A stretch of DNA of 64,000 bases. It comes from Proteiniborus sp. DW1. Lineage in GTDB: Bacteria; Bacillota; Clostridia; Tissierellales; Proteiniboraceae. Each line of letters opens with the position of its first letter. Positions within the stretch are counted from its first letter, which is position 1. A program made the translations under genes and the position numbers. Location of the stretch: assembly GCF_900095305.1 (NCBI RefSeq), contig NZ_FMDO01000030.1, forward strand, positions 62,001 to 126,000, read 5' to 3'. The notes beneath the pieces are model-generated. The model was not told the origin of the DNA, did no database searches, and saw nothing but the letters and a program-made list of their open reading frames with translations. Positions 9,868 through 39,961 of this stretch are shown here, one piece after another.

Positions 9868-9885
9868 TGAAAACACTCCTTCCTA

Positions 9886-10008
9886 TTTTGCTTCCGAAGT
9901 TAGCTGACGGGTTCGGGATAGAAGGCTCCCTACTATGAGACTCATAGATTAACCCCTTTAATGGTTCCTCCGTACCTAAATATATAGGATTCAGCAAGCA
10001 TAGTGTTT
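9886..10008 (-). promoter_or_regulatory. ydaO/yuaA-type c-di-AMP riboswitch
   Basis: On the minus strand the leader contains the conserved blocks of the ydaO aptamer in order: GCTTGCTGAATCC, GGTACGGAGGAACCA, GGGGTTAATC, TAGGGAGCC, then ACCCGTCAGCTAACTTC and GGAAGC. These riboswitches sense c-di-AMP and commonly precede wall hydrolases and K+ transporters. No terminator lies between the aptamer and the gene. The 3' arm of the closing helix (GCAAAATAG) directly abuts the ribosome site AGGAAGGAG, so control of translation start is likely (inference). Confidence 0.9.
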
Positions 10009-13231: not shown

Positions 13232-13801
13232 ATGGAACAGCTAAAGAAAAAGATATTAGAAGAAGGTAGTGTAGAAGAAGGGAATATTTTAAAGGTTGAC
13301 AGTTTTCTAAATCATCAATTAGACATTAAGTTTCTAAATGAGGTAGGAAAAGAATTTAAAAGACTTTTTGATGATAGAAAGATAACAAAAATACTAACAC
13401 TTGAAACATCAGGCATAGCTATAGCAAGTATTACTGCCCAGTATTTCAATGTTCCAGTAGTGTTTGCTAAGAAGATTGCAACAAAGAATCTTGATAAGGA
13501 AACTTATGAAAGTGATGTTTACTCATATACCAAGGGGAGAACCTATAAGATTAAGGTATCAAAAAAATATATTAAACCAGATGATCATATTCTTATTATT
13601 GATGATTTTTTAGCAAATGCACAGGCTGCATTAGGTCTTATGGATATTATTAATAAAGGTGGGGCTACTCTAGAGGGAATTGGTATAGTAATAGAAAAGG
13701 GCTTCCAAGATGGAGGAAAGCTCCTAAGAGAACAGGGTGTTAATCTAAAATCACTAGTAATTATAGATTCATTTGATGGAGATAAAGTAAAGTTTAGATA
13801 G
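13232..13801 (+). CDS. xpt: Xanthine phosphoribosyltransferase
   Basis: Salvages xanthine (and related bases) to XMP using PRPP. The 189 residues match Xpt length. [16 protein letters not shown] is the family's base-side region (about residues 54-69) and [17 protein letters not shown] (about 123-139) is the PRPP loop. GGGAGG precedes the ATG. Unlike the Bacillus gene it has no partner xanthine permease here, and no purine riboswitch was found in the 190 bases upstream. A strong terminator follows at once. Confidence 0.93.
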
Positions 13802-13830
13802 AAAAAACCAGAGATTTTCTGGTTTTTTCT
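13801..13830 (+). terminator. Intrinsic terminator after xpt
   Basis: AGAAAAAACCAGA and TCTGGTTTTTTCT pair around a short loop. Confidence 0.85.
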
Positions 13831-13864
13831 ATTTCAATCAATTATTATACTATTATGAGTCTAG

Positions 13865-13894
13865 TTGATTTATTTATCTCAAAAGTAGTATAAT
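13865..13894 (+). promoter_or_regulatory. Candidate sigma-A promoter for the (p)ppGpp synthetase gene
   Basis: TTGATT (13865-13870) and TATAAT (13889-13894) are separated by 18 bases. It lies about 90 bases before the start codon, leaving a short leader. Confidence 0.5.
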
Positions 13895-13987
13895 ATTTTT
13901 AGGTCTATGTAATAAATATTTAGTATTTGCTGGTTAGAATATGCTTTATATATTGCAAATAATAAGGCAGAAGGCAGGGGATATATT

Positions 13988-14767
13988 ATGATGTTTTATT
14001 GGGAAAGACTTTTGATACCATATGAACAAGCTGTAGAAGAGCTTAAGGTCAAGTTTAAAGGAATAAGAAATGAGTATAGAAGATTAGATGAATACTCTCC
14101 TATTGAATTTGTCACGGGTAGAGTAAAAGCCATTTCAAGTATTATAGACAAAGCAAGAAGAAGAAATGTACCACTAGAAAGAGTAGAAGAAGAAATAGAG
14201 GATATTGCAGGAATACGTATAATGTGTCAACTAGTAGACGATATTGAAAAAGTAGTTCAGTTAATAAGAAGTAGAGATGGTAAGGATTTGAAAATTGTAG
14301 AAGAAAGAGACTACATAACTAATATTAAAGAAAGTGGATATAGGAGTTATCATATTATTATCAAATATATGGTGCATACTGTATTTGGTGAAAAGGAGAT
14401 ACTAGCTGAGATTCAAATTAGAACATTGGCTATGAACTTTTGGGCGACTATAGAGCATTCATTGAATTACAAATTCTCTAGAAAAATACCAGAGGATGTA
14501 AAGGAAAGATTGAAAAATGCGGCTGAGGCAGCATTTTTACTTGATCAAGAAATGTCAGAAATTAAGGATGAAATTACAGATGCTCAAGAAATCTTTCAGT
14601 TAAAATCATCACTAATTGTTGATATACTGAAAAAAATTCAAAATCTATATTTCACTGGTAAGATTAAGGAAATTGAGGGGATTCAAGAGAGATTTCTTGT
14701 ACTTCAAGAACATGGTAGTGTATCTGAATTAAGAAAGTTTAGCAAGGAACTAGATGAAATGCTTTAA
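13988..14767 (+). CDS. relQ: Small alarmone synthetase (RelQ/YjbM type)
   Basis: Makes (p)ppGpp from GTP/GDP and ATP. The 259 residues contain only the synthetase domain; the HD hydrolase, TGS and ACT parts of long RelA/SpoT are absent. Conserved blocks are GRVKAISSIIDKARRR (about residues 42-57), EDIAGIRIMCQ (about 73-83), ESGYRSYHIIIK (about 117-128) and EIQIRTLAMNFWATIEHSLNYK (about 140-161). A C-terminal helical tail follows, as in RelQ tetramers. Two ATG codons stand in tandem (13988, 13991) after GCAGGGG; I use the first. No partner gene is evident, the gene looks monocistronic. Confidence 0.92.
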   Translation: MMFYWERLLIPYEQAVEELKVKFKGIRNEYRRLDEYSPIEFVTGRVKAISSIIDKARRRNVPLERVEEEIEDIAGIRIMCQLVDDIEKVVQLIRSRDGKDLKIVEERDYITNIKESGYRSYHIIIKYMVHTVFGEKEILAEIQIRTLAMNFWATIEHSLNYKFSRKIPEDVKERLKNAAEAAFLLDQEMSEIKDEITDAQEIFQLKSSLIVDILKKIQNLYFTGKIKEIEGIQERFLVLQEHGSVSELRKFSKELDEML

Positions 14768-15321: not shown

Positions 15322-16371
15322 CTATTTACCAATATTATTCTTTATATTCATAGCAAATTCTCTAGCATATTTTTCGATATTTAGCAGTTCTAGAATAGCC
15401 CCTTTGTCATTAGCAGTAGCCATAAGAGAGAAGTAAGGTGGTAGTCTAAAGGTTTTATTTATATTTAGTGCACTGATTAATTGCTTAGCAACTGAATCGC
15501 CGCCTGAATTTCCTGAAACAATGATACTATAAAAATATTTATTATAAAACTTAGTTTTTCTAAATAGTGCTGTTAATCTGTTGATTACAGCAGAAAGATT
15601 TGCAGAGATTGCATCATTATAGTTAGGGCAAATCCAAATAACTATATCTGATTCAAGTATAGCTGGATAGACTTCTTCAACCATAATCCCTCCATAAAAA
15701 CAGCTAGTTTGCTGTCCATAATGTTTGCATATCTTATAAGGACAACCGATACAATCCTTAACTGTACCATTTTCTATATTTATCTCTCTTATTGCATAGT
15801 TTTTTAAGTTCCCTTTAACCATATCCCAAAGCATTAATGAATTTGAAGTAGCCCTATTGCTAGCATGAAGAACTAGGATATTTGGATTCTCAAGAAGTAG
15901 AGGTCTATACTTTCTTAATCTATTACCTAGGTCCTTACAGCTTTCAATGCACACATCTATTAAAGGCTTATTAGATATCTTCTGCATAGTCAAGAAGTTT
16001 CTTAAGGAGCCCGTTGCTTCTACTAAAGGCCTCCCAGGAAAACTTAGCCCAAGCTGGTTAGTCAAGAAAATAACATTTTGTGCAACAGTTTTAGTAAACA
16101 ACTCAGTATTACTATGCACTAAAACTCCTCCTATAGAGCCAGATAATCCATGCCTTCCTCTATTAAATATTTCTGTAAGTATTTTGTCTAAACCTAAGCT
16201 TATACCTGCATTGTTAAGTTCCACTGCAAAAATAATTTTCTTATTTCTTAGGTCAGGAATATTACGTTCATCTTTAATAATAATTGAATTCCAGCCTTCA
16301 GTGACTGCATCAATCATCTTAGCAAGAATATCTGAAGGCTTCTCAGGAACTACTAAATAGAGGTCGTTCAT
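15322..16371 (-). CDS. Flavodoxin-fold NAD(P)H-dependent oxidoreductase with Cys motif
   Basis: A 349-residue protein. The C-terminal half (about residues 164-349) is an NADPH-FMN-reductase/flavodoxin fold: NILVLHASNRATSNSLMLWD is the FMN phosphate loop, and DCIGCPYKIC (cysteines 207, 210, 215, with 224 beyond) resembles the cysteine motif of iron-sulfur flavoproteins. The N-terminal half looks like a second, degenerate copy of the same fold. It starts at ATGA overlapping the stop of the upstream Rossmann gene, so the two are translationally coupled. With the giant protein upstream it forms a three-gene minus-strand unit. The substrate is unknown. Confidence 0.75.
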   Translation of the reverse strand: MNDLYLVVPEKPSDILAKMIDAVTEGWNSIIIKDERNIPDLRNKKIIFAVELNNAGISLGLDKILTEIFNRGRHGLSGSIGGVLVHSNTELFTKTVAQNVIFLTNQLGLSFPGRPLVEATGSLRNFLTMQKISNKPLIDVCIESCKDLGNRLRKYRPLLLENPNILVLHASNRATSNSLMLWDMVKGNLKNYAIREINIENGTVKDCIGCPYKICKHYGQQTSCFYGGIMVEEVYPAILESDIVIWICPNYNDAISANLSAVINRLTALFRKTKFYNKYFYSIIVSGNSGGDSVAKQLISALNINKTFRLPPYFSLMATANDKGAILELLNIEKYAREFAMNIKNNIGK

Positions 16372-17621
16372 ATAGTTTTCGCCAGCCTTTCAAAGGTTGC
16401 TTCTAATTTTTTATATAAAGATTGGGGAAGATTTAATCGTTCAAGCTCTGTACCCGAGGGGGTTAATCTATTCTTAGCTCCCATATATACTCCACCTATA
16501 AAAGTAGCACTATAATGCCAATTGCCCTTTATAGTATTTATTATAGATAGGGTGCCAGAAGATAGAGCAGGTGCAATAAAGGGCTTATATCCTGCTTTTC
16601 TAACCTCTAGATTTGCCTTTAGTGTCTTTTCAGTCAGGTAATCAGATAGTTCATCATCATAGTTCTCTATGCTATTAGCTATGACTAGTCCCTGTCCATG
16701 TGGACCAAAGGCTCTACCTTCATTAATAAAAGATACTGTCTTAGGATTTTTAGAAGCATAATATGCTGCCCTAGCAGTCATTACACCAAGTCCATATCCT
16801 CTTATTTGTTCAGGTGCTAGCCCTTTATAGTCCATAATTCCTTGAGGGCTTTTATTACTTTCTATAAGTGCAACCTTACATAGCAGGTCTACAGGATCAG
16901 ATACAACAGCGAATATTCCGTTGAAGTTATTTTCCCTTGCCATAAGAGCATATTGTTTAATGATTTTTGAATTGCTATCTAGTTGATAAAGTCTCACATC
17001 TCCAACATTTTCTCCTACCTTAGGTACATTCTTTGAAGCACAAAATACAAACATATGACAGTTAAACAACTCTTCTTCTGATATACCTCTTATAATAGGG
17101 TAATCTTCACCACAGAAGGGATCTAATATCTGGTTTGCCTCTAGCTCCCATCTAGTAACAGATTCTATTGATCTTGAATATATCCCAATTTCAGATATAC
17201 AACTTCCGCCCAATAGACGAAGTCCAGTTAGAAGAGTTCCCCCAACATCTCCTAATCCAGCTAGGTTTATTTTCCACTTAACAGGAGGATCATGCTCTAA
17301 TACACTTTTCCAGTTATGATAGCTTGTATTTATAGCCATAATCTTCCTAAAATTAATTTTAGAAAGTATCCAGTCTCTTATCTCATAATTCTTGTCTTCC
17401 GGGCTAGCTAATAAGCTTAAATCTTCTTTTGTTAAAAATAACAGCGAGTGATCGGAAATAGCGAAGCTTCTCCTCGAAGATTTAGGGTCTAAAGCTGTGA
17501 GAAAATATATTAAATCCTTTTCATTTAATGCTTCTATTGCTTCACTTTCAGAAATCTCATTAAATTCATCATATCTATTAAAAGAAAAAGCAACTTTATC
17601 CTTTATCTTATAGAAAAACAT
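16368..17621 (-). CDS. Rossmann-fold dehydrogenase-like protein (lactate/malate-type)
   Basis: 417 residues. The central KINLAGLGDVGGTLLTGL (GLGDVGG at residues 122-128) is a dinucleotide-binding loop preceded by an unfamiliar ~110-residue N-terminal domain. The later VSDPVDLLCKVAL and GLGVMTARAAYYA stretches resemble lactate/malate dehydrogenases, but I do not see their classic catalytic DxxR/H arrangement clearly. AAGGAGGGG lies four bases before the ATG at 17621, preferred over a longer frame at 17660. It lies 130 bases after the giant gene and overlaps the flavodoxin gene by 4 bases. A redox role in the same pathway is inferred. Confidence 0.7.
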   Translation of the reverse strand: MFFYKIKDKVAFSFNRYDEFNEISESEAIEALNEKDLIYFLTALDPKSSRRSFAISDHSLLFLTKEDLSLLASPEDKNYEIRDWILSKINFRKIMAINTSYHNWKSVLEHDPPVKWKINLAGLGDVGGTLLTGLRLLGGSCISEIGIYSRSIESVTRWELEANQILDPFCGEDYPIIRGISEEELFNCHMFVFCASKNVPKVGENVGDVRLYQLDSNSKIIKQYALMARENNFNGIFAVVSDPVDLLCKVALIESNKSPQGIMDYKGLAPEQIRGYGLGVMTARAAYYASKNPKTVSFINEGRAFGPHGQGLVIANSIENYDDELSDYLTEKTLKANLEVRKAGYKPFIAPALSSGTLSIINTIKGNWHYSATFIGGVYMGAKNRLTPSGTELERLNLPQSLYKKLEATFERLAKTI

Positions 17622-17751
17622 CAAACCCCTCCTTAATCTATTAAGATACTTTAAGGACATATATAATAATCGAACTTTAGATTTAAATCATAATTCTTAG
17701 AGAATGTAAGACAAAAATCCGTTAAGCAACTTGCACTGAAGTATATTCTTA

Positions 17752-20700
17752 TCATCTCACTATATCCTTAATTCTATTTAACCGCAAAATGTCATTTTTC
17801 AAATATTCAGAAGGCTTAATATTTAAGTCATATTCTATAAACCTACCTAGCTCAGGACATCTAGGAGTTATGAATACTTCACCTAAATGTTTAAGAGTCA
17901 AATTTTTTTCCTCTTTTAATAAATATTCTCTCTCAATAGTTTGCAATATATCAATGGAATTTAGTATACAAGTTTCTGATAACTTAATAATAGATTCTTC
18001 AGAAGCATTTTTAATGAAATTAGGAAACATATAGGGCATTATTAAGTTGATAGAAGGAATCATGTATCTTTTGGGCTGATCTCCTGTTCGTACAGAATCT
18101 CCTCCCATAAAAGGATATAGCTGACTTTCATCAAACCATACTCTTAGGTTAGGAATAAAATATGCAGAGTCTACTTGAGTTTCGCTAGCATCAGCAAATT
18201 CTTTTCCTCTACCAGAAAGAATACCTACTATTGTCTTATCTACAGTTATGCCTTCTTGTTTAAGAAGAGGACCAATGGCTTTCATCCTATACCCCTTGTG
18301 AAGCAAATCATCAATCAATATCACAGCTCTATTGAAGGAACGCAGTAATTTAATCTGATTTTCTAAGCTCATATGATATCTAGAAGGTACAATGGTTGAG
18401 CTTTGTAAATCTGGTTCAAATTGCTTTTCAGTATGCATTGATTTAGTAACAGTATTAGGGACTATTGAGCCTTTTAATATAGAACCAAAGGGGACACACA
18501 TTAAGGTTCCGAGGGTTTTAGGTTCTATTACTTTTACTGGGACATCGTTAGTTTTACAAATCTTGTGAATTAACTTTTTATGCAAAATTTCCATATCAAA
18601 TGATAGTAATAAGTTGCCTGGATAAAGCTTAGTCAATGCTAATTGAAGCTTTTTTCTTGCTTTTCTTATTGAGTTTAAAACACTTTCATTGCTCTTAAAA
18701 GGGTCTTTAATTACAGTTTCGATATTAAGATATAAGGTGCAAGGGTTAGTCATGTTTACCTTATATATAGGCTTATCTTTTTCACAAAAAGGTACTAGCT
18801 GAAATCCTTGAAGTTCAAGTGTTTCATATAAATCCTTTGCCAAATACGAGCCTATACAGCTTTTAAAAACAGCATAAGTATAGTCTTCTGAAAGGCACAA
18901 TGCAAGGGTTTCTGTAAGCAAGATTTGGTTTAAATTTTTGTATTTTGATGAATTATCAATATATATTCCATCTATTAACAAAACCCTACCTATAGCATCT
19001 TGTCTTAGATAATCAGATACTTCATGATTTCCGAATTCTCTAAAGAACATTCCTGATTTGATCCAATGAAACATAGAAAATCCTAGGATATTTCCGTTGT
19101 TACTATCTTTTACTAATATTATACGAGGACTAATCTTTGACTTTAAGCTAGATAACTTACTGAAGGCAATTTTATCATCATTAAAAAATACTTGGCATAG
19201 TTTTGATAACAGATCAGTGTCAATATGCTCAACTATTTTAATGTCAAGAGAAGTAGTTTGGAGTAATGTCTTATATTGAGGTTCTCTCCTATATACACCA
19301 TATTCATAGATATATTTCTGTGCCAGAGGGTCTATAAGTTGAGAGATATCCCTGTCTTCATCTATATATGTTCTAATTTGAGTTGAACTTATGTCTTCAT
19401 ATTGAGGAGGAAGTGATAGCCTAATTATTTTTCCTCTAATGTTCTGAATTGCTTCCTCTAGCTTTTTATCATCATGTTCTGCAGAAACTATACTTCTTCT
19501 ATCGAAGATAATATGAGGGAAGGTATGTATTGAATCCTCAGCTTGTTCATTTTTGTAGCTAGAAGCATTTAGTATTACATCACTTCCAACTACTATATGA
19601 ATACTAGAGTTTGAAAAACACTCTTTCAATGCCTTCAAATCTCTATTATTTGCTATATTAATCTGAATATCCTCTGGAAACAGGTAGATTCCTAATTCAT
19701 CGGCTATGGATATATTTATAATTTCACGTCTTAATAGATTTGGCTGAGTCATTTTAGACCATGAAAACTCATCAACAGCTAAATATACATCAAATCCTAG
19801 ATTTCTTATTGCCAATGCTATCTCTTTGTGACTCAAAGAAAAGGGATCAAAAGTCCCTGGGAAAAATGCCACATTGGGATTATGCTTAATTTCAAAGCTC
19901 CCATAATAGAACACATAATCTGATATAAATCTATATACGTGATTTAATGCTGCTGAATTGTTTAAAAAAGCAAGCTTATCTTTATCAATTTCTACTAATA
20001 GAGTAAGTAGCTTCTTCAAAATAAGCTCGAAAATCTTTCCTTTTTCTTTTAATGGAAGTACAGGTGAACCAAGTATTTCCTTACCTATTACTCTAAAGGC
20101 TTCATGACTAATTTGATAGTCATAGTTAGCAAGTCCATTTAACAATATTCCCAGCATTTTTTTGAGTCTTTGCTGATTTTTTTCTATATCCTCATCAAAT
20201 CTTTCCCTGTATTGTGGATAATTTTCTATGGCACTTCCTATGGTTCTGAGCAGTAGAAAAGTGACTTGAGGGCTAGATTGTTTAACTTTTTCGATAAAAT
20301 CCTCGATTACTTCATCTAATTCTACAGGGTGCAAATATAAAAGCATCTTTCCCAAATAGGGAGGGATGTACTTGGTAAACTGAAAATCCTGCATTTCAAG
20401 AGCACGCAAAAGTTCAACACTTACGTCATTTCTCTCAACTAAACTAAGATGAGGGAAAAGCTTAAGTAATGCTTGACCAGCACGTGTCCTCACACTCTCA
20501 GTAGCACTTACTTTAATTAAGTTACAGTAATGCATGGCTGTATGAAGTCCATTTTCTCTTGGAAATTCCAGCCCAAGTTCAAGAAGAAAATCAATAGATA
20601 TTTTCTTGATTACCCAGCTTGTAGCAGTTTTTAAATTCTTTAGAAAAGTATCTGAAACTCTTGCATGATCATCAAGGAAATAGCTCCTAAATAAGGCTTT

Positions 20701-22626
20701 AGTTTTATCCTCAAAACTTAGTACTTTAGATATTTTATATTTTAGAAAATTTATCGGAACAATATCTGGGTAATTAGCATTATCAGTTAGATTAATGATT
20801 ATTTTATCAAAACCATTGTTGATTTGAGAAGAAAGATAATATATGCCTTCAAGGGCAGATAGTTCAATATCTAAGTTATAGCTATTACTCATTCTTTCAA
20901 CAAATCCAAGTACCTTATGACACTCTAACTCTTTATATTTGCTAAAAGGTATATATTTTATAGTTTGAATTAGATAAAGAATAGCATCATCTTCAAGACT
21001 GTAAGCAGTATCATAATAGTTCAGCATTACATCGGTAAAGTTCCTTCCTTGATCTTCGCTACAGTGTTTAAAGAGTGATCCTATCATATCTTCTAAGCAT
21101 AATCCTATCCATTTTCTGTGTGTTTCAATTATTTTATGGTCAGGACATAGGAATAAGCTAACATACTTAGCTAGAAGCATGCTACTAGTTATTTCTGGTG
21201 ACTCTATATTTACATCATCAGGTACTTCTTTTCTATACACTTCATCGAATAGTGCTATGAATTTACCTATTAATTGTGCACATTGCTTTCTAACATCCTC
21301 TTCCTTGTGAGTTAAAAAGTCATAAAGAAAGTTAAGAGTAATTAGTTTTTGCCTTTGAGTTAAAAAAGTAGAGTATTCTTCGAAAATATTAATATAACCT
21401 CGAAGTTTTTTCCAGTCAGTTTCGCTTGCAGCCATTTCCAGAATAGTATTTAATGAAGTTTCGTTTCTAAATATATTCATCACATGAATGTTATGCTCAA
21501 TAGCTTTGTATTTAATATTATCTATTATTTCTTTTCCCTGCATAAGTGAAACGTGCTTCTTACTTTTGCTAGTCAACTTAACTCCATCTAAGTCAACATT
21601 TACTCCGGCATCAATTATAAAGTTTTCAAAATCCTTAAGCTTCGAATATACTCTTTTGTATCTTTTTTCTTTTTTCAAATCCACATTATCTAGCTTGTTC
21701 AATATAATATCAAAGGATTCCTCAAGTGAATAGATATGCATGATTCTACTACCATCAGGTAATTCTTTATTCTTAACTCTAAAGTCTGAATATATCAAAA
21801 CGAGAGATTCAATTGGTAGATTTTCTAGCTCTAAATCCCATGTAGAATGATAGGTAGCTATATGTCCTATGTAGGGTAAATTGTGTTTCTTAAACCATAC
21901 ATCAGTGTAGTAATAGTGTAGATAAGGAACTCTTTGATATTCACTTCTGCTACAGCCAAATTTACCTATATCATGTCCTGCTGCTGCGCCAGATAATTTG
22001 CAAAGGTCAATTGGAAGACTTATCTCTTTAATCTGTCTACCTATGAATAGTGCTAAATAATGAACTCCACAAATATGGTCAAGAGTATTGTGGTTAGTGA
22101 TTTCCTGATGGAGCTTCATCATTTCATAAACATAGAGATTATTAAATACATTTTTAAACTGTCTATATTCAGCTAAGCTTGCAGACTTTTTTTCTTCCTC
22201 AGAACTGAGAAAGATTAGAGGATATTTGCTTTGACAGGTACTTGTACTCATGTTTTTTTCAAACTCAAATACTACCCTAAGAGCCTTAAGATAGAAAATT
22301 ATGACAGGGTTATATTTAGGGTCTACATCTATATCGATAGCATTAGGAAATGACTTATTTAGACTAAATTGATAGACATAATATAATAGGTTGTGGGGAG
22401 GCTTAGTACCGAATATTTGTATGAGAAGGTTTTCACAAAGGCTTAAAACAGCCTGACAACTAAAGTCTTTTTCTTTAATCATTTTCTCCAGATTATCTAT
22501 GAAAGAATCCTTTAATATATTATCACTAACTATTTTTGCATCTAGTGAAAGTTCAGTCAAAAATTTTTCATTCATTAAGGCTCTTACTAATTTATTATGT
22601 AGTTTTTGAACCAATGACTTGATCAT
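17752..22626 (-). CDS. Giant multidomain protein: HD + helical repeats + NadD-like + GNAT-like + PRTase-like
   Basis: 1,624 residues with no signal peptide. An N-terminal HD phosphohydrolase-like region has H184, the HD pair H218-D219 in GHDIGKFG, and further histidines near 256-262. Residues about 360-890 are alpha-helical repeats of HEAT/ARM character. About 915-1110 is a nucleotidyltransferase of the NadD type: FFPGTFDPFSLSH with D927 and H933, ending in ISSTQIR. About 1118-1280 looks like a GNAT acetyltransferase (weaker). About 1310-1600 resembles a phosphoribosyltransferase, with VILIDDLLHKGYRMK (D1439, D1440) as the PRPP loop. AAGGAGG precedes the ATG. Individual domains are known; their union and role are not. 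Nucleotide or NAD-like cofactor chemistry is inferred. Confidence 0.8.
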   Translation of the reverse strand: MIKSLVQKLHNKLVRALMNEKFLTELSLDAKIVSDNILKDSFIDNLEKMIKEKDFSCQAVLSLCENLLIQIFGTKPPHNLLYYVYQFSLNKSFPNAIDIDVDPKYNPVIIFYLKALRVVFEFEKNMSTSTCQSKYPLIFLSSEEEKKSASLAEYRQFKNVFNNLYVYEMMKLHQEITNHNTLDHICGVHYLALFIGRQIKEISLPIDLCKLSGAAAGHDIGKFGCSRSEYQRVPYLHYYYTDVWFKKHNLPYIGHIATYHSTWDLELENLPIESLVLIYSDFRVKNKELPDGSRIMHIYSLEESFDIILNKLDNVDLKKEKRYKRVYSKLKDFENFIIDAGVNVDLDGVKLTSKSKKHVSLMQGKEIIDNIKYKAIEHNIHVMNIFRNETSLNTILEMAASETDWKKLRGYINIFEEYSTFLTQRQKLITLNFLYDFLTHKEEDVRKQCAQLIGKFIALFDEVYRKEVPDDVNIESPEITSSMLLAKYVSLFLCPDHKIIETHRKWIGLCLEDMIGSLFKHCSEDQGRNFTDVMLNYYDTAYSLEDDAILYLIQTIKYIPFSKYKELECHKVLGFVERMSNSYNLDIELSALEGIYYLSSQINNGFDKIIINLTDNANYPDIVPINFLKYKISKVLSFEDKTKALFRSYFLDDHARVSDTFLKNLKTATSWVIKKISIDFLLELGLEFPRENGLHTAMHYCNLIKVSATESVRTRAGQALLKLFPHLSLVERNDVSVELLRALEMQDFQFTKYIPPYLGKMLLYLHPVELDEVIEDFIEKVKQSSPQVTFLLLRTIGSAIENYPQYRERFDEDIEKNQQRLKKMLGILLNGLANYDYQISHEAFRVIGKEILGSPVLPLKEKGKIFELILKKLLTLLVEIDKDKLAFLNNSAALNHVYRFISDYVFYYGSFEIKHNPNVAFFPGTFDPFSLSHKEIALAIRNLGFDVYLAVDEFSWSKMTQPNLLRREIINISIADELGIYLFPEDIQINIANNRDLKALKECFSNSSIHIVVGSDVILNASSYKNEQAEDSIHTFPHIIFDRRSIVSAEHDDKKLEEAIQNIRGKIIRLSLPPQYEDISSTQIRTYIDEDRDISQLIDPLAQKYIYEYGVYRREPQYKTLLQTTSLDIKIVEHIDTDLLSKLCQVFFNDDKIAFSKLSSLKSKISPRIILVKDSNNGNILGFSMFHWIKSGMFFREFGNHEVSDYLRQDAIGRVLLIDGIYIDNSSKYKNLNQILLTETLALCLSEDYTYAVFKSCIGSYLAKDLYETLELQGFQLVPFCEKDKPIYKVNMTNPCTLYLNIETVIKDPFKSNESVLNSIRKARKKLQLALTKLYPGNLLLSFDMEILHKKLIHKICKTNDVPVKVIEPKTLGTLMCVPFGSILKGSIVPNTVTKSMHTEKQFEPDLQSSTIVPSRYHMSLENQIKLLRSFNRAVILIDDLLHKGYRMKAIGPLLKQEGITVDKTIVGILSGRGKEFADASETQVDSAYFIPNLRVWFDESQLYPFMGGDSVRTGDQPKRYMIPSINLIMPYMFPNFIKNASEESIIKLSETCILNSIDILQTIEREYLLKEEKNLTLKHLGEVFITPRCPELGRFIEYDLNIKPSEYLKNDILRLNRIKDIVR

Positions 22627-22745
22627 AAAAACCTCCTTTGACTAGAAATAATATTTACTGTGTTTCTTTATTTTACCATTGTTTAGAACTATAGTAAATA
22701 AGGCTGCTATTTTTTAAGCGTTATTATATATAAAATTACATAAGA

Positions 22746-22825: not shown

Positions 22826-23785
22826 TTACTCAACCTTTAATTCAAAATTTCCTACTCCCATATCAACTTCAATACTAGCTTTTGATACAGAGTTTTCGTA
22901 ATTAGGGGAGATGTACCAGCCATTTTCTTTTTTCCAGTTTAAATCATTAAGGTTACTGTGTTTTAAGGCTCCATCCAGTTTGACTCTTACTCCTAAGTCT
23001 TTTGGAACAGAGATATTGATGTTTGTAGCTCCAGCATCAATATCTACTTTTAGATTTTCAACATTGTTTCCTAATAATAGGTTTATATCACCAGCACCAA
23101 AATCTAAGTCTAATTTATTTACTCTAAGGTCTCTAAAATCTATATTTCCATTAACTACACCAATGTCACCTTCTATATCCCAAAGCACCTTGTCAGAAAG
23201 AGTAAAATTACTTTTATATCCTTTGTTTCCTCTTAGATTAATTTTATTATTTTTTTCTCTTATAACAATTCTAGCTTTCTCACCACTATTAGAATAGTCA
23301 ATACTATTATTAACATGTTGACTTTCTATATATCCATCAAGTAAGTTCATATCAGATGCAGAGTCAATTTCCAAATCAACTTCACCTAGTTCTAGATCAA
23401 GAGAAGCTTTTTTTGTTTTATCATCAAGCTGGTATGTTATATTTCTAGAAGATCTCTTATTGCTATTAGAATTAGAACTTGCATTGAAATCAGCATTGAG
23501 ATCTATGTTTATGTTAGAGTTTTTACTTATATTTGTTTGATAGTCTTTATATTGCAAATAAAAACCATAAGCGATGACTATTACAAAAAAGCCAATCCAT
23601 ACTAGAGTTTTTATAGTTCTCTTATCGTTAAATACTATAGAAGCACCTGCTGCGATTAAGATTAGGGGCCACAAATCAAAGGCCACTTCAAGTATTGACC
23701 ACCTGATTAGGTCTAGATTATAAAGCAGCAAAAATATGCCGATAAAAACCAGAATTCCTCCAAAAATAAAATTATTTCTTTTCAT
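22826..23785 (-). CDS. LiaF-like membrane protein with adhesin-like beta tail
   Basis: 319 residues. The first ~85 contain three to four membrane helices (LiaI/LiaF-type DUF5668 pattern, FGGILVFIGIFLLLYNL). A hydrophilic linker rich in Asn/Ser follows. The C-terminal ~190 residues are a repetitive beta structure with alternating DLELGEVDLEI, DFGAGDINLLL, DIDAGATNINISV and DMGVGNFEL strands, the DUF4097/LiaF 'toastrack' type. Such proteins act in envelope-stress signalling. GGGAGG precedes the ATG at 23785, which overlaps the end of the PspC gene by 14 bases. No LiaRS two-component genes are nearby. Confidence 0.8.
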   Translation of the reverse strand: MKRNNFIFGGILVFIGIFLLLYNLDLIRWSILEVAFDLWPLILIAAGASIVFNDKRTIKTLVWIGFFVIVIAYGFYLQYKDYQTNISKNSNINIDLNADFNASSNSNSNKRSSRNITYQLDDKTKKASLDLELGEVDLEIDSASDMNLLDGYIESQHVNNSIDYSNSGEKARIVIREKNNKINLRGNKGYKSNFTLSDKVLWDIEGDIGVVNGNIDFRDLRVNKLDLDFGAGDINLLLGNNVENLKVDIDAGATNINISVPKDLGVRVKLDGALKHSNLNDLNWKKENGWYISPNYENSVSKASIEVDMGVGNFELKVE

Positions 23786-24209
23786 TGAAATTCCTCCCAT
23801 TGACTATTATATATAAGCCAGCTAAAACAAGTATGATTCCACCAAAGTTAACAAAATCTAACCAGTATAAGAACTTCTTTGCAAAAATAAAAGTCCCTAA
23901 TGCTATTAATCCAATTCCTAGGATCATATTGTTCTTTTCATCTCTGTTTGTAGGATTATTATCATAAGTATATTCAGAGGTATAACCTCCATCAAAAGTA
24001 GTTTCTTTTCTATTATAGTAGCTATAAGGAGCTTCTGGAATAATAATCATACAAACAATATATGCAATAATTCCAATTGCCTTGGTAAAGAACAATAAAA
24101 CACAGACTAATCTTATAATTACAGGATCAACATCAAGGTAATCTGCTAGTCCTCCACAAACTCCTCCAATAACTTTATTTTCTTGCGAACGATAAAGCTG
24201 CCTACTCAT
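23772..24209 (-). CDS. PspC-domain membrane protein
   Basis: A 145-residue protein. The N-terminal PspC domain is clear: RLYRS-like start, KVIGGVCGGLADYLDVDPVIIRLVCVLL (about residues 12-39) and IAYIVCMIIIPEAP, where one amphipathic and one transmembrane helix stand. A polar Tyr/Asn-rich linker follows, then two further membrane helices (about 95-135) of the LiaI type. AAAGGAG precedes the ATG. It is the first gene of a two-gene operon with the LiaF-like gene, which suggests a joint envelope-stress or membrane-damage sensing role; that role is inferred from the family. Confidence 0.85.
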   Translation of the reverse strand: MSRQLYRSQENKVIGGVCGGLADYLDVDPVIIRLVCVLLFFTKAIGIIAYIVCMIIIPEAPYSYYNRKETTFDGGYTSEYTYDNNPTNRDEKNNMILGIGLIALGTFIFAKKFLYWLDFVNFGGIILVLAGLYIIVNGRNFNEKK

Positions 24210-39732: not shown

Positions 39733-39922
39733 ATAAAGAATGAATTGTTTCCTGAGATGTACGATAGTCTATGATAATTCAACCGACATATTATATACGG
39801 GAGTCTGAGTTCATTAGTTGATGATATGCCTGTTCTAACAGGACATCAGAGGTTAGTGGCAGGACACCCACCTGCAGAAGTGCGGGTGTGAATTAGCTAG
39901 ACCGCCGGCATCATGGGAATAT
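39733..39922 (+). ncRNA. ssrS: 6S RNA
   Basis: The 5' end TTTCCTGAGATGTACG and the 3' end ACCGCCGGCATCATGGGAAT are the closing-stem sequences conserved in 6S RNA and pair with each other. The ~190-base length and a largely unpaired centre between them agree. It binds the sigma-A RNA polymerase holoenzyme by mimicking an open promoter. A consensus promoter stands before it and a strong terminator after it, so it is an independent gene. Confidence 0.85.
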
Positions 39923-39961
39923 AAAATCCTTAAGCAACTGCTTAAGGATTTTATATTTTTT
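39921..39961 (+). terminator. Terminator of 6S RNA
   Basis: ATAAAATCCTTAAGCA pairs perfectly with TGCTTAAGGATTTTAT, followed by ATTTTTT. Confidence 0.88.

Follow-up and report, generated by a model that had tools for sequence, protein, structure and literature searches.

A conserved clostridial unit of a five-part NadD-like protein and two redox partners that may handle a nucleotide-type compound

Results and discussion

The DNA analyzed here (the window) is a stretch of 64,000 nucleotides from Proteiniborus sp. DW1 (contig NZ_FMDO01000030.1, positions 62,001 to 126,000). Within it, a minus-strand unit of three genes, 15322-22626(-), encodes a five-part protein with a NadD-like nucleotidylyltransferase domain (P1), a dehydrogenase-like protein (P2) and a flavoprotein (P3). 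We tentatively propose, with somewhat less than even confidence, that P1, P2, and P3 work as one unit in which a nucleotide-type compound is made and turned over, and that this compound or its precursor is used in a redox step. The proposal draws on the domain folds, the conservation of their motifs, the strict co-occurrence of the three genes, and a joint loss in one lineage, all of which we observed.

An original prediction, made from the letters of the window, had described the three open reading frames (ORFs), the ATGA by which the P2 and P3 frames overlap, and three P1 motifs, namely H218-D219, GTFDPFSLSH with D927 and H933, and D1439-D1440. All of them are present at the positions it gave. 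P1 is a single-copy gene in the source genome of 3.1 Mb. The genes and the domains of P1 are as follows.

17752..22626, minus strand: P1, ORF of 1624 amino acids (aa), five-part protein with HD, helical-repeat, NadD-like, GNAT-like, and phosphoribosyltransferase (PRTase)-like regions in this order
16368..17660, minus strand: P2, ORF of 430 aa, dehydrogenase-like protein of the lactate/malate dehydrogenase (LDH/MDH) superfamily
15322..16371, minus strand: P3, ORF of 349 aa, flavoprotein of the FMN-reductase fold
21592..22179, minus strand: HD domain, P1 residues 150-345 (Pfam HD; six ligands)
19915..21579, minus strand: helical region with HEAT-like repeats, P1 residues ~350-904 (Pfam HEAT)
19285..19884, minus strand: NadD-like nucleotidylyltransferase, P1 residues 915-1114 (GTFDPFSLSH, ISSTQIR)
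18751..19275, minus strand: GNAT fold, P1 residues 1118-1292 (predicted structure)
17755..18741, minus strand: type I PRTase fold and helical C-terminus, P1 residues 1296-1624 (predicted structure)

Going by the relatives, most of which begin there, the true start of P2 is probably Met14.

The three genes occur together

Searching 199 genomes of the order, we found P1, P2, and P3 in 87, 84, and 83 of them, respectively, and these were nearly always the same genomes. Every P2 genome carries P1 (84/84). The P1 genomes without P2 are G019, in which the P1 match ends early, G114, which is fragmented, and G082, which is described below. P3 matched only once outside the P1 genomes, as a 75-residue fragment in G063. 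In a sample of 196 genomes from the class, the same 16 genomes, belonging to several families, held P2 and the C-terminal module of P1, with 179 joint absences and one additional weak P2 match; the module was not seen away from a P1-type locus in any of the 196. Fisher's exact test gave 3e-53 for the order and 1e-22 for the class, values that are indicative only because the genomes share kinship. The co-occurrence of the three families in Clostridia, which the original prediction had looked to as support for a system, is strict.

P1 is conserved as a single copy across whole families of the order sample, and its relatives in the 87 genomes of the order are 32-78% identical to it over the full ~1600 residues, far more than chance would give. 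At the level of the phylum the distribution is patchy, since P1 was found in only 4 of 299 genomes. An alignment-based scan of named genomes gave 539 candidate stretches encoding P1 relatives, and the relatives kept include Caloramator, Alkaliphilus, Tepidibacter, Clostridium carboxidivorans, Sedimentibacter, Tissierella, and seven Atribacterota metagenome-assembled genomes (MAGs). The Atribacterota sequences (L071, L077, L079, L081, L090, L095, and L098) make up a single clade that branches within the Clostridia (support 1.0) and group with Alkalithermobacter/Tepidibacter (support 0.99), a placement best explained by a probable cross-phylum transfer.

We examined the gene order at 121 P1 loci, 105 of which hold the complete trio. 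P2 adjoins P1 at 112 loci and P3 is present at 105. The three genes lie on one strand in all the complete loci (105/105), and the four-base ATGA overlap of P2 and P3 recurs in 61 of them. Where P2 or P3 is missing, the cause is mostly a contig end; the true exceptions are L075 and L109, which have P1 and P2 without P3, the standalone P1 copies, and L042, the last two kinds being described below. In two genomes, at L164 (7921-13233) and L165 (6246-11443), P1 is separated from P2 and P3, which remain side by side, by an ammonium-transporter-like gene and three further genes that look like split glutamate synthase subunits. P1 also occurs as a second, standalone copy, with no P2 or P3 beside it, at L091 (8007-12830) and L114 (7971-12794), both from Marinisporobacter MAGs, and at L166 (4830-9722, genome G637). 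The HD and NadD ligands are intact in the two Marinisporobacter copies. Among the 121 loci, we found no gene that accompanies the trio at every one.

One lineage has lost HD and NadD residues of P1 together with P2 and P3

Locus L042 (7150-11940), of genome G082, is syntenic with the locus of the relatives and has the same upstream genes. The P1 frame there is still open over 1597 aa, at 35% identity. All six HD ligands are changed in it, as are G924, D927, G1014, S1080, S1081, and R1085, and both P2 and P3 are gone. This joint loss suggests that the HD domain, the NadD-like domain, P2, and P3 serve one chain of events. The P1 of this lineage is perhaps a scaffold remnant.

P1 combines a NadD fold with a YqeK-like HD site

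Performing structure prediction on P1 residues 905-1624 (pLDDT 92, pTM 0.90), we obtained the NadD, GNAT, and PRTase folds that the original prediction had named for this part of the protein. The predicted NadD fold matches 4rpi by VIA with Z 19.1 and a root-mean-square deviation of 2.5 over 187 residues. By sequence, the NadD model TIGR00482 matches P1 with E 1.8e-10 and 41.2 bits and the relatives with 39-68 bits, and neither P1 nor the relatives reach its curated cut-off of 112 bits. An hhalign comparison of the P1 domain with the order's own canonical NadD gave E 1.6e-16. Scoring residue conservation over 119 P1 sequences, we find that the nucleotide-binding NadD signatures F926, P928, H933, K958, R966, and D1016 are kept in the family, with H933 present in 119/119 and ISS[ST]xIR, the ATP-binding motif of NadD, nearly universal. 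The fold, the GxFDP...H and ISSTxIR motifs, and the K and R positions are common to canonical NadD and the P1 domain. Canonical NadD, however, has HxGH, whereas this motif is absent from the P1 family, which reads [ST]x[SG]H (SLSH and TLGH types) in one domain of a 1600-aa protein. The conserved Trp of canonical NadD aligns with Tyr1024 of P1.

The HD domain was matched by Pfam HD in 31 of 36 P1 members (best E 2.2e-7), and its ligands H184, H218, D219, H237, H260, and D281 are kept in 118 of the 119 sequences. YqeK is a dinuclear diphosphatase with the ligand set H...HD...H...H...D, a fuller set than the H...HD...D to which most other HD phosphatases are limited (PMC8177086). The same six-ligand order as in YqeK, a di-iron HD hydrolase of diadenosine tetraphosphate (Ap4A), is present in P1. 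Profile similarity between the two is at the superfamily level only: comparing the P1 HD domain with the order's own YqeK by hhalign gave a weak match (probability 18, P 0.0014), and the NCBIfam YqeK model had no match to it. Judged by these comparisons, the P1 HD domain resembles YqeK in its site, which by itself does not make it a member of the YqeK family. The helical region that follows was matched by Pfam HEAT in 16 of 28 P1 members (best E 1.2e-5).

A nucleotidyltransferase and an HD phosphohydrolase also share one chain in the mycoplasma NadD-YqeK fusion (JCVISYN3A_0380), where the HD part hydrolyzes dinucleotides made by the NadD part, including wrong ones (PMC9426524). That fusion consists of two domains only. 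In P1, by contrast, the HD domain is N-terminal, ~570 residues of helical repeats precede the NadD-like domain, GNAT and PRTase folds come after it, and two redox partners accompany the protein.

The GNAT-like and PRTase-like domains lack canonical motifs

By VIA, the GNAT fold (model residues 219-389) matches 4fd6 with Z 14.8. Among the C-terminal domains of P1, conservation is lowest here. Its acyl-CoA motif [QR]xxGx[GA] stands at the usual place in one of the 119 sequences and is absent from 118. All five regions named by the original prediction (HD, helical, NadD, GNAT, and PRTase) are supported as folds, whereas a catalytic acetyltransferase should not be taken for granted.

Residues 1296-1624 were also modelled separately (pLDDT 92). 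The top 50 Foldseek matches of this model are all of the type I PRTase fold (best E 4e-6), and its VIA matches (best Z 11.2) are nearly all type I PRTases. The sequence profile of this region had no significant match among solved structures, so the fold assignment rests on the structure model. As in the type I PRTases OPRT, APRT, Xpt, and PyrR, an acidic pair follows a hydrophobic strand, with D1439 in 119/119 and D1440 in 108/119 sequences. The type I PRTases go on to TGxT, whereas the canonical loop for phosphoribosyl pyrophosphate (PRPP), DDxxxTGxT, is found in 0/119 P1 sequences. The P1 family reads DD-x3-KGYR instead (DDLLHKGYR in the P1 of the window; KGYR nearly everywhere) and adds conserved CVPxG, PNTVTKxxHTEK, and GGD motifs, which matched no family in this analysis. 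The general statement of the original prediction that PRTases use PRPP therefore cannot be assumed for P1. The Lys and Arg of the altered loop suggest to us a ligand phosphorylated differently from PRPP.

P2 and P3 are candidate redox enzymes

The Rossmann protein and the Cys-rich flavoprotein of the original prediction turned out to be, respectively, P2 of the LDH/MDH superfamily and P3 with an FMN-reductase domain. P2 was matched by Ldh_1_N (8.5e-5) and TIGR01771 (2.7e-7), and by profile to MDH/LDH structures with E 9e-9. Scoring 26 sequences each of P2 and P3, we find G137, D138, and G140 of the P2 nucleotide loop GxGDVG in 26/26. Also invariant in P2 (26/26) are R223, R297, and H321, which from the alignment we take to be the equivalents of LDH R109, R171, and H195. 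Met294 and Asp255, likewise invariant, presumably stand at the positions of the catalytic Asp168 and of Asn140 in LDH. P2 therefore shares the NAD loop and the R109/R171/H195 set with lactate and malate dehydrogenases. It differs from them in an N-terminal extension of ~110 residues and, by the alignment, in that neither the Asp168-His195 pair nor Asn140 is kept, only the His remaining as H321. P2 is likely a redox enzyme in which the acid pair is rearranged.

The FMN_red domain of P3 was recognized by Pfam (E 9.3e-21), and C207, C210, C215, and C224 are present in 26/26 sequences with the spacing C-x2-C-x4-C-x8-C. We take this four-Cys cluster to be placed as in iron-sulfur flavoproteins. NADPH-dependent FMN reductases and iron-sulfur flavoproteins likewise have FMN_red and, once the first part of the fold is complete, a cluster of Cys; P3 differs from them in its Cys spacing and in an added N-terminal domain. 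By this likeness, P3 probably carries FMN and an iron-sulfur cluster. Its N-terminal domain (residues 1-154, window 15910-16371(-)) had no Pfam match. Against solved structures, the whole P3 profile had no match, and the C-terminal part met FMN reductases at a non-significant E of 0.2. A conserved FPGRPLVEATGS stretch in the N-terminal half of P3 recalls LPPYFSLMATAN in the C-terminal half. The likeness of the two stretches is perhaps a trace of an old duplication; comparing the profiles of the two halves gave nothing significant.

Proposed function and its alternatives

Every catalytic activity, the order of the steps, and the identity of the compound are what we infer for the unit, and the scheme would run as follows. 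The NadD-like domain would transfer a nucleotidyl group, probably AMP from ATP, to a phosphate-bearing substrate, the ribose-phosphate end of which the PRTase-fold domain may hold at its altered, Lys/Arg-lined loop. The HD domain, of the di-metal diphosphatase type, would hydrolyze the resulting or a wrong phosphoanhydride, as recycling or proofreading. The GNAT-fold and HEAT parts would be structural or hold the substrate. P2 (NAD-dependent, LDH-like) and P3 (FMN, probably iron-sulfur) could then do a linked oxidation-reduction. The mycoplasma fusion gives a precedent for nucleotidyl transfer and hydrolysis on one chain (PMC9426524).

Several points weigh against this proposal. The profile match of the HD domain to YqeK is weak. 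As the NadD-like motif is [ST]x[SG]H and not HxGH, the acceptor of this domain cannot be predicted. Ribosyl transfer is unproven with a non-canonical PRPP loop. The co-loss comes from one lineage only, and the standalone intact copies suggest that P1 may act without P2 and P3. Furthermore, an Rfam scan of 19 short and 7 long loci gave no match near P1, and so no riboswitch that would name the compound; riboswitch control was rejected for the loci scanned, the Rfam matches of the window itself being distant ones.

The compound that the unit may make or edit could be NAD-like, in line with the inference of the original prediction. The sequences do not decide between the making of a new compound and the cleaning up of a known one. 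In a more specific version of our proposal, which we hold to be doubtful, fermenting anaerobes would have in the trio a dedicated machinery for the biosynthesis and use of a nucleotide-type cofactor or cosubstrate not described before, with P1 making it and P2 and P3 turning it over.

Alternatively, P1 could be an elaborated NadD-HD proofreader that rebuilds or destroys aberrant NAD-like dinucleotides, with P2 and P3 acting on a damaged redox form and no new compound involved. We consider this possible, if rather unlikely. The hydrolysis of wrong dinucleotides by the mycoplasma fusions (PMC9426524) is in its favor, as are the HD and NadD residues of P1, which are conserved together and lost together, and the retention of canonical nadD and yqeK in the genomes read. 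However, yqeK adjoins canonical nadD in the ten genomes read and could already do the job; the PRTase-like and LDH-like parts would be left unexplained, and the likeness of the HD domain to YqeK stops at the superfamily.

It also seems unlikely that P1 is mainly a nucleotide sensor, whose HEAT region docks proteins and which steers P2 and P3 or amino-acid catabolism. PRTase-fold regulators such as PyrR exist, the GNAT acyl-CoA and PRPP-loop signatures are lost, and HEAT repeats are at hand in P1. Moreover, L-serine-dehydratase-like genes, identified by eye through their C-terminal sequence, stand upstream of P1 (L036, L044, L046-L050, and others). At 27 loci they share its strand, and at most of these they abut it; they do so in several families and are a few kb upstream in others. 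This synteny is, however, confined to some lineages, and the HD and NadD catalytic residues, kept in 118-119 of the 119 sequences, would be superfluous in a mere sensor.

An enzyme that modifies or caps RNA with a nucleotide, using the HEAT region as an RNA- or protein-binding scaffold, would share a general resemblance with P1 as a large multidomain nucleotidyltransferase with a repeat scaffold. This is quite improbable, as neither Pfam nor NCBIfam gave an RNA-binding family and the partners are redox enzymes.

The NadD and PRTase folds in a single chain could also mean that P1 replaces nicotinate/quinolinate PRTase and NadD in the supply of NAD, which we judge highly improbable. Canonical NadD is above the curated cut-off in 24/24 genomes tested, a nadC or nicotinate-PRTase-type gene is present in 20/20 operon-bearing genomes tested (the source genome gave a weaker match, to a frame of 350 aa), and the PRTase part of P1 has the type I fold and not that of the nicotinate/quinolinate type. 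With these genes elsewhere in the genomes, the housekeeping NAD route was rejected as largely refuted, and a simple replacement of NAD synthesis by the unit is argued against. Finally, multi-domain nucleotide enzymes are common in anti-phage defense, and a role there or in a mobile system is just as improbable: PADLOC gave no match for P1, P2, or P3 at E up to 1, 50,697 phage records held none, the single match in a plasmid collection is a record of 2.6 Mb, probably a chromosome, and the unit is single copy and conserved in whole families.

The component folds are all known. The domain combination and the conserved trio appear to be new as far as the open-license literature goes, where we found no paper on this architecture, in line with the statement of the original prediction that no such pathway is known to be described; the function is putative. 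Over many clostridial families, and in Atribacterota too, a protein of ~1,600 residues has remained colinear with its two redox partners at 32-80% identity. It is presumably useful, in a way that we did not find in the described metabolism of these organisms. Should the unit make a new cofactor or provide a new proofreading route, the list of nucleotide cofactors, still a short one, would grow. Otherwise, the trio would still give a function to a widespread family known only by fold names.

Promoter and surroundings of the unit

A sigma-A-like promoter precedes P1.

22670..22698, minus strand: TTTACT-17-TAAAAT, 43 bases upstream of the P1 start codon

Its letters and spacing are identical in three relatives (L025, L026, and L030); a promoter scan of the single sequence upstream of P1 was not above chance. 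A link of the operon to sporulation was rejected, as Spo0A and the operon are not distributed alike in the order: about 20 operon-bearing genomes are without full Spo0A and many Spo0A-bearing genomes are without the operon. The sigma-A-like look of this genus-conserved promoter also disfavors such a link.

The trio was also met on NZ_CP154629.1 (L163 4134-11270), a record of 2.63 Mb labelled as a plasmid of Acetoanaerobium noterae that, going by its size, is probably a mislabelled chromosome. An undecaprenyl-diphosphate-synthase-like gene lies near P1 at 23 loci. In the window, the unit is flanked by xanthine-phosphoribosyltransferase-like and RelA/SpoT-type synthetase genes on one side and by LiaF-like and PspC-like genes on the other (13232-14767(+) and 22826-24209(-)), and these flanking genes are kept only in near relatives. 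Farther away, the window holds a c-di-AMP riboswitch (RF00379, 96 bits) at 9874-10006(-) and a 6S RNA (RF00013, 89 bits) at 39746-39923(+).

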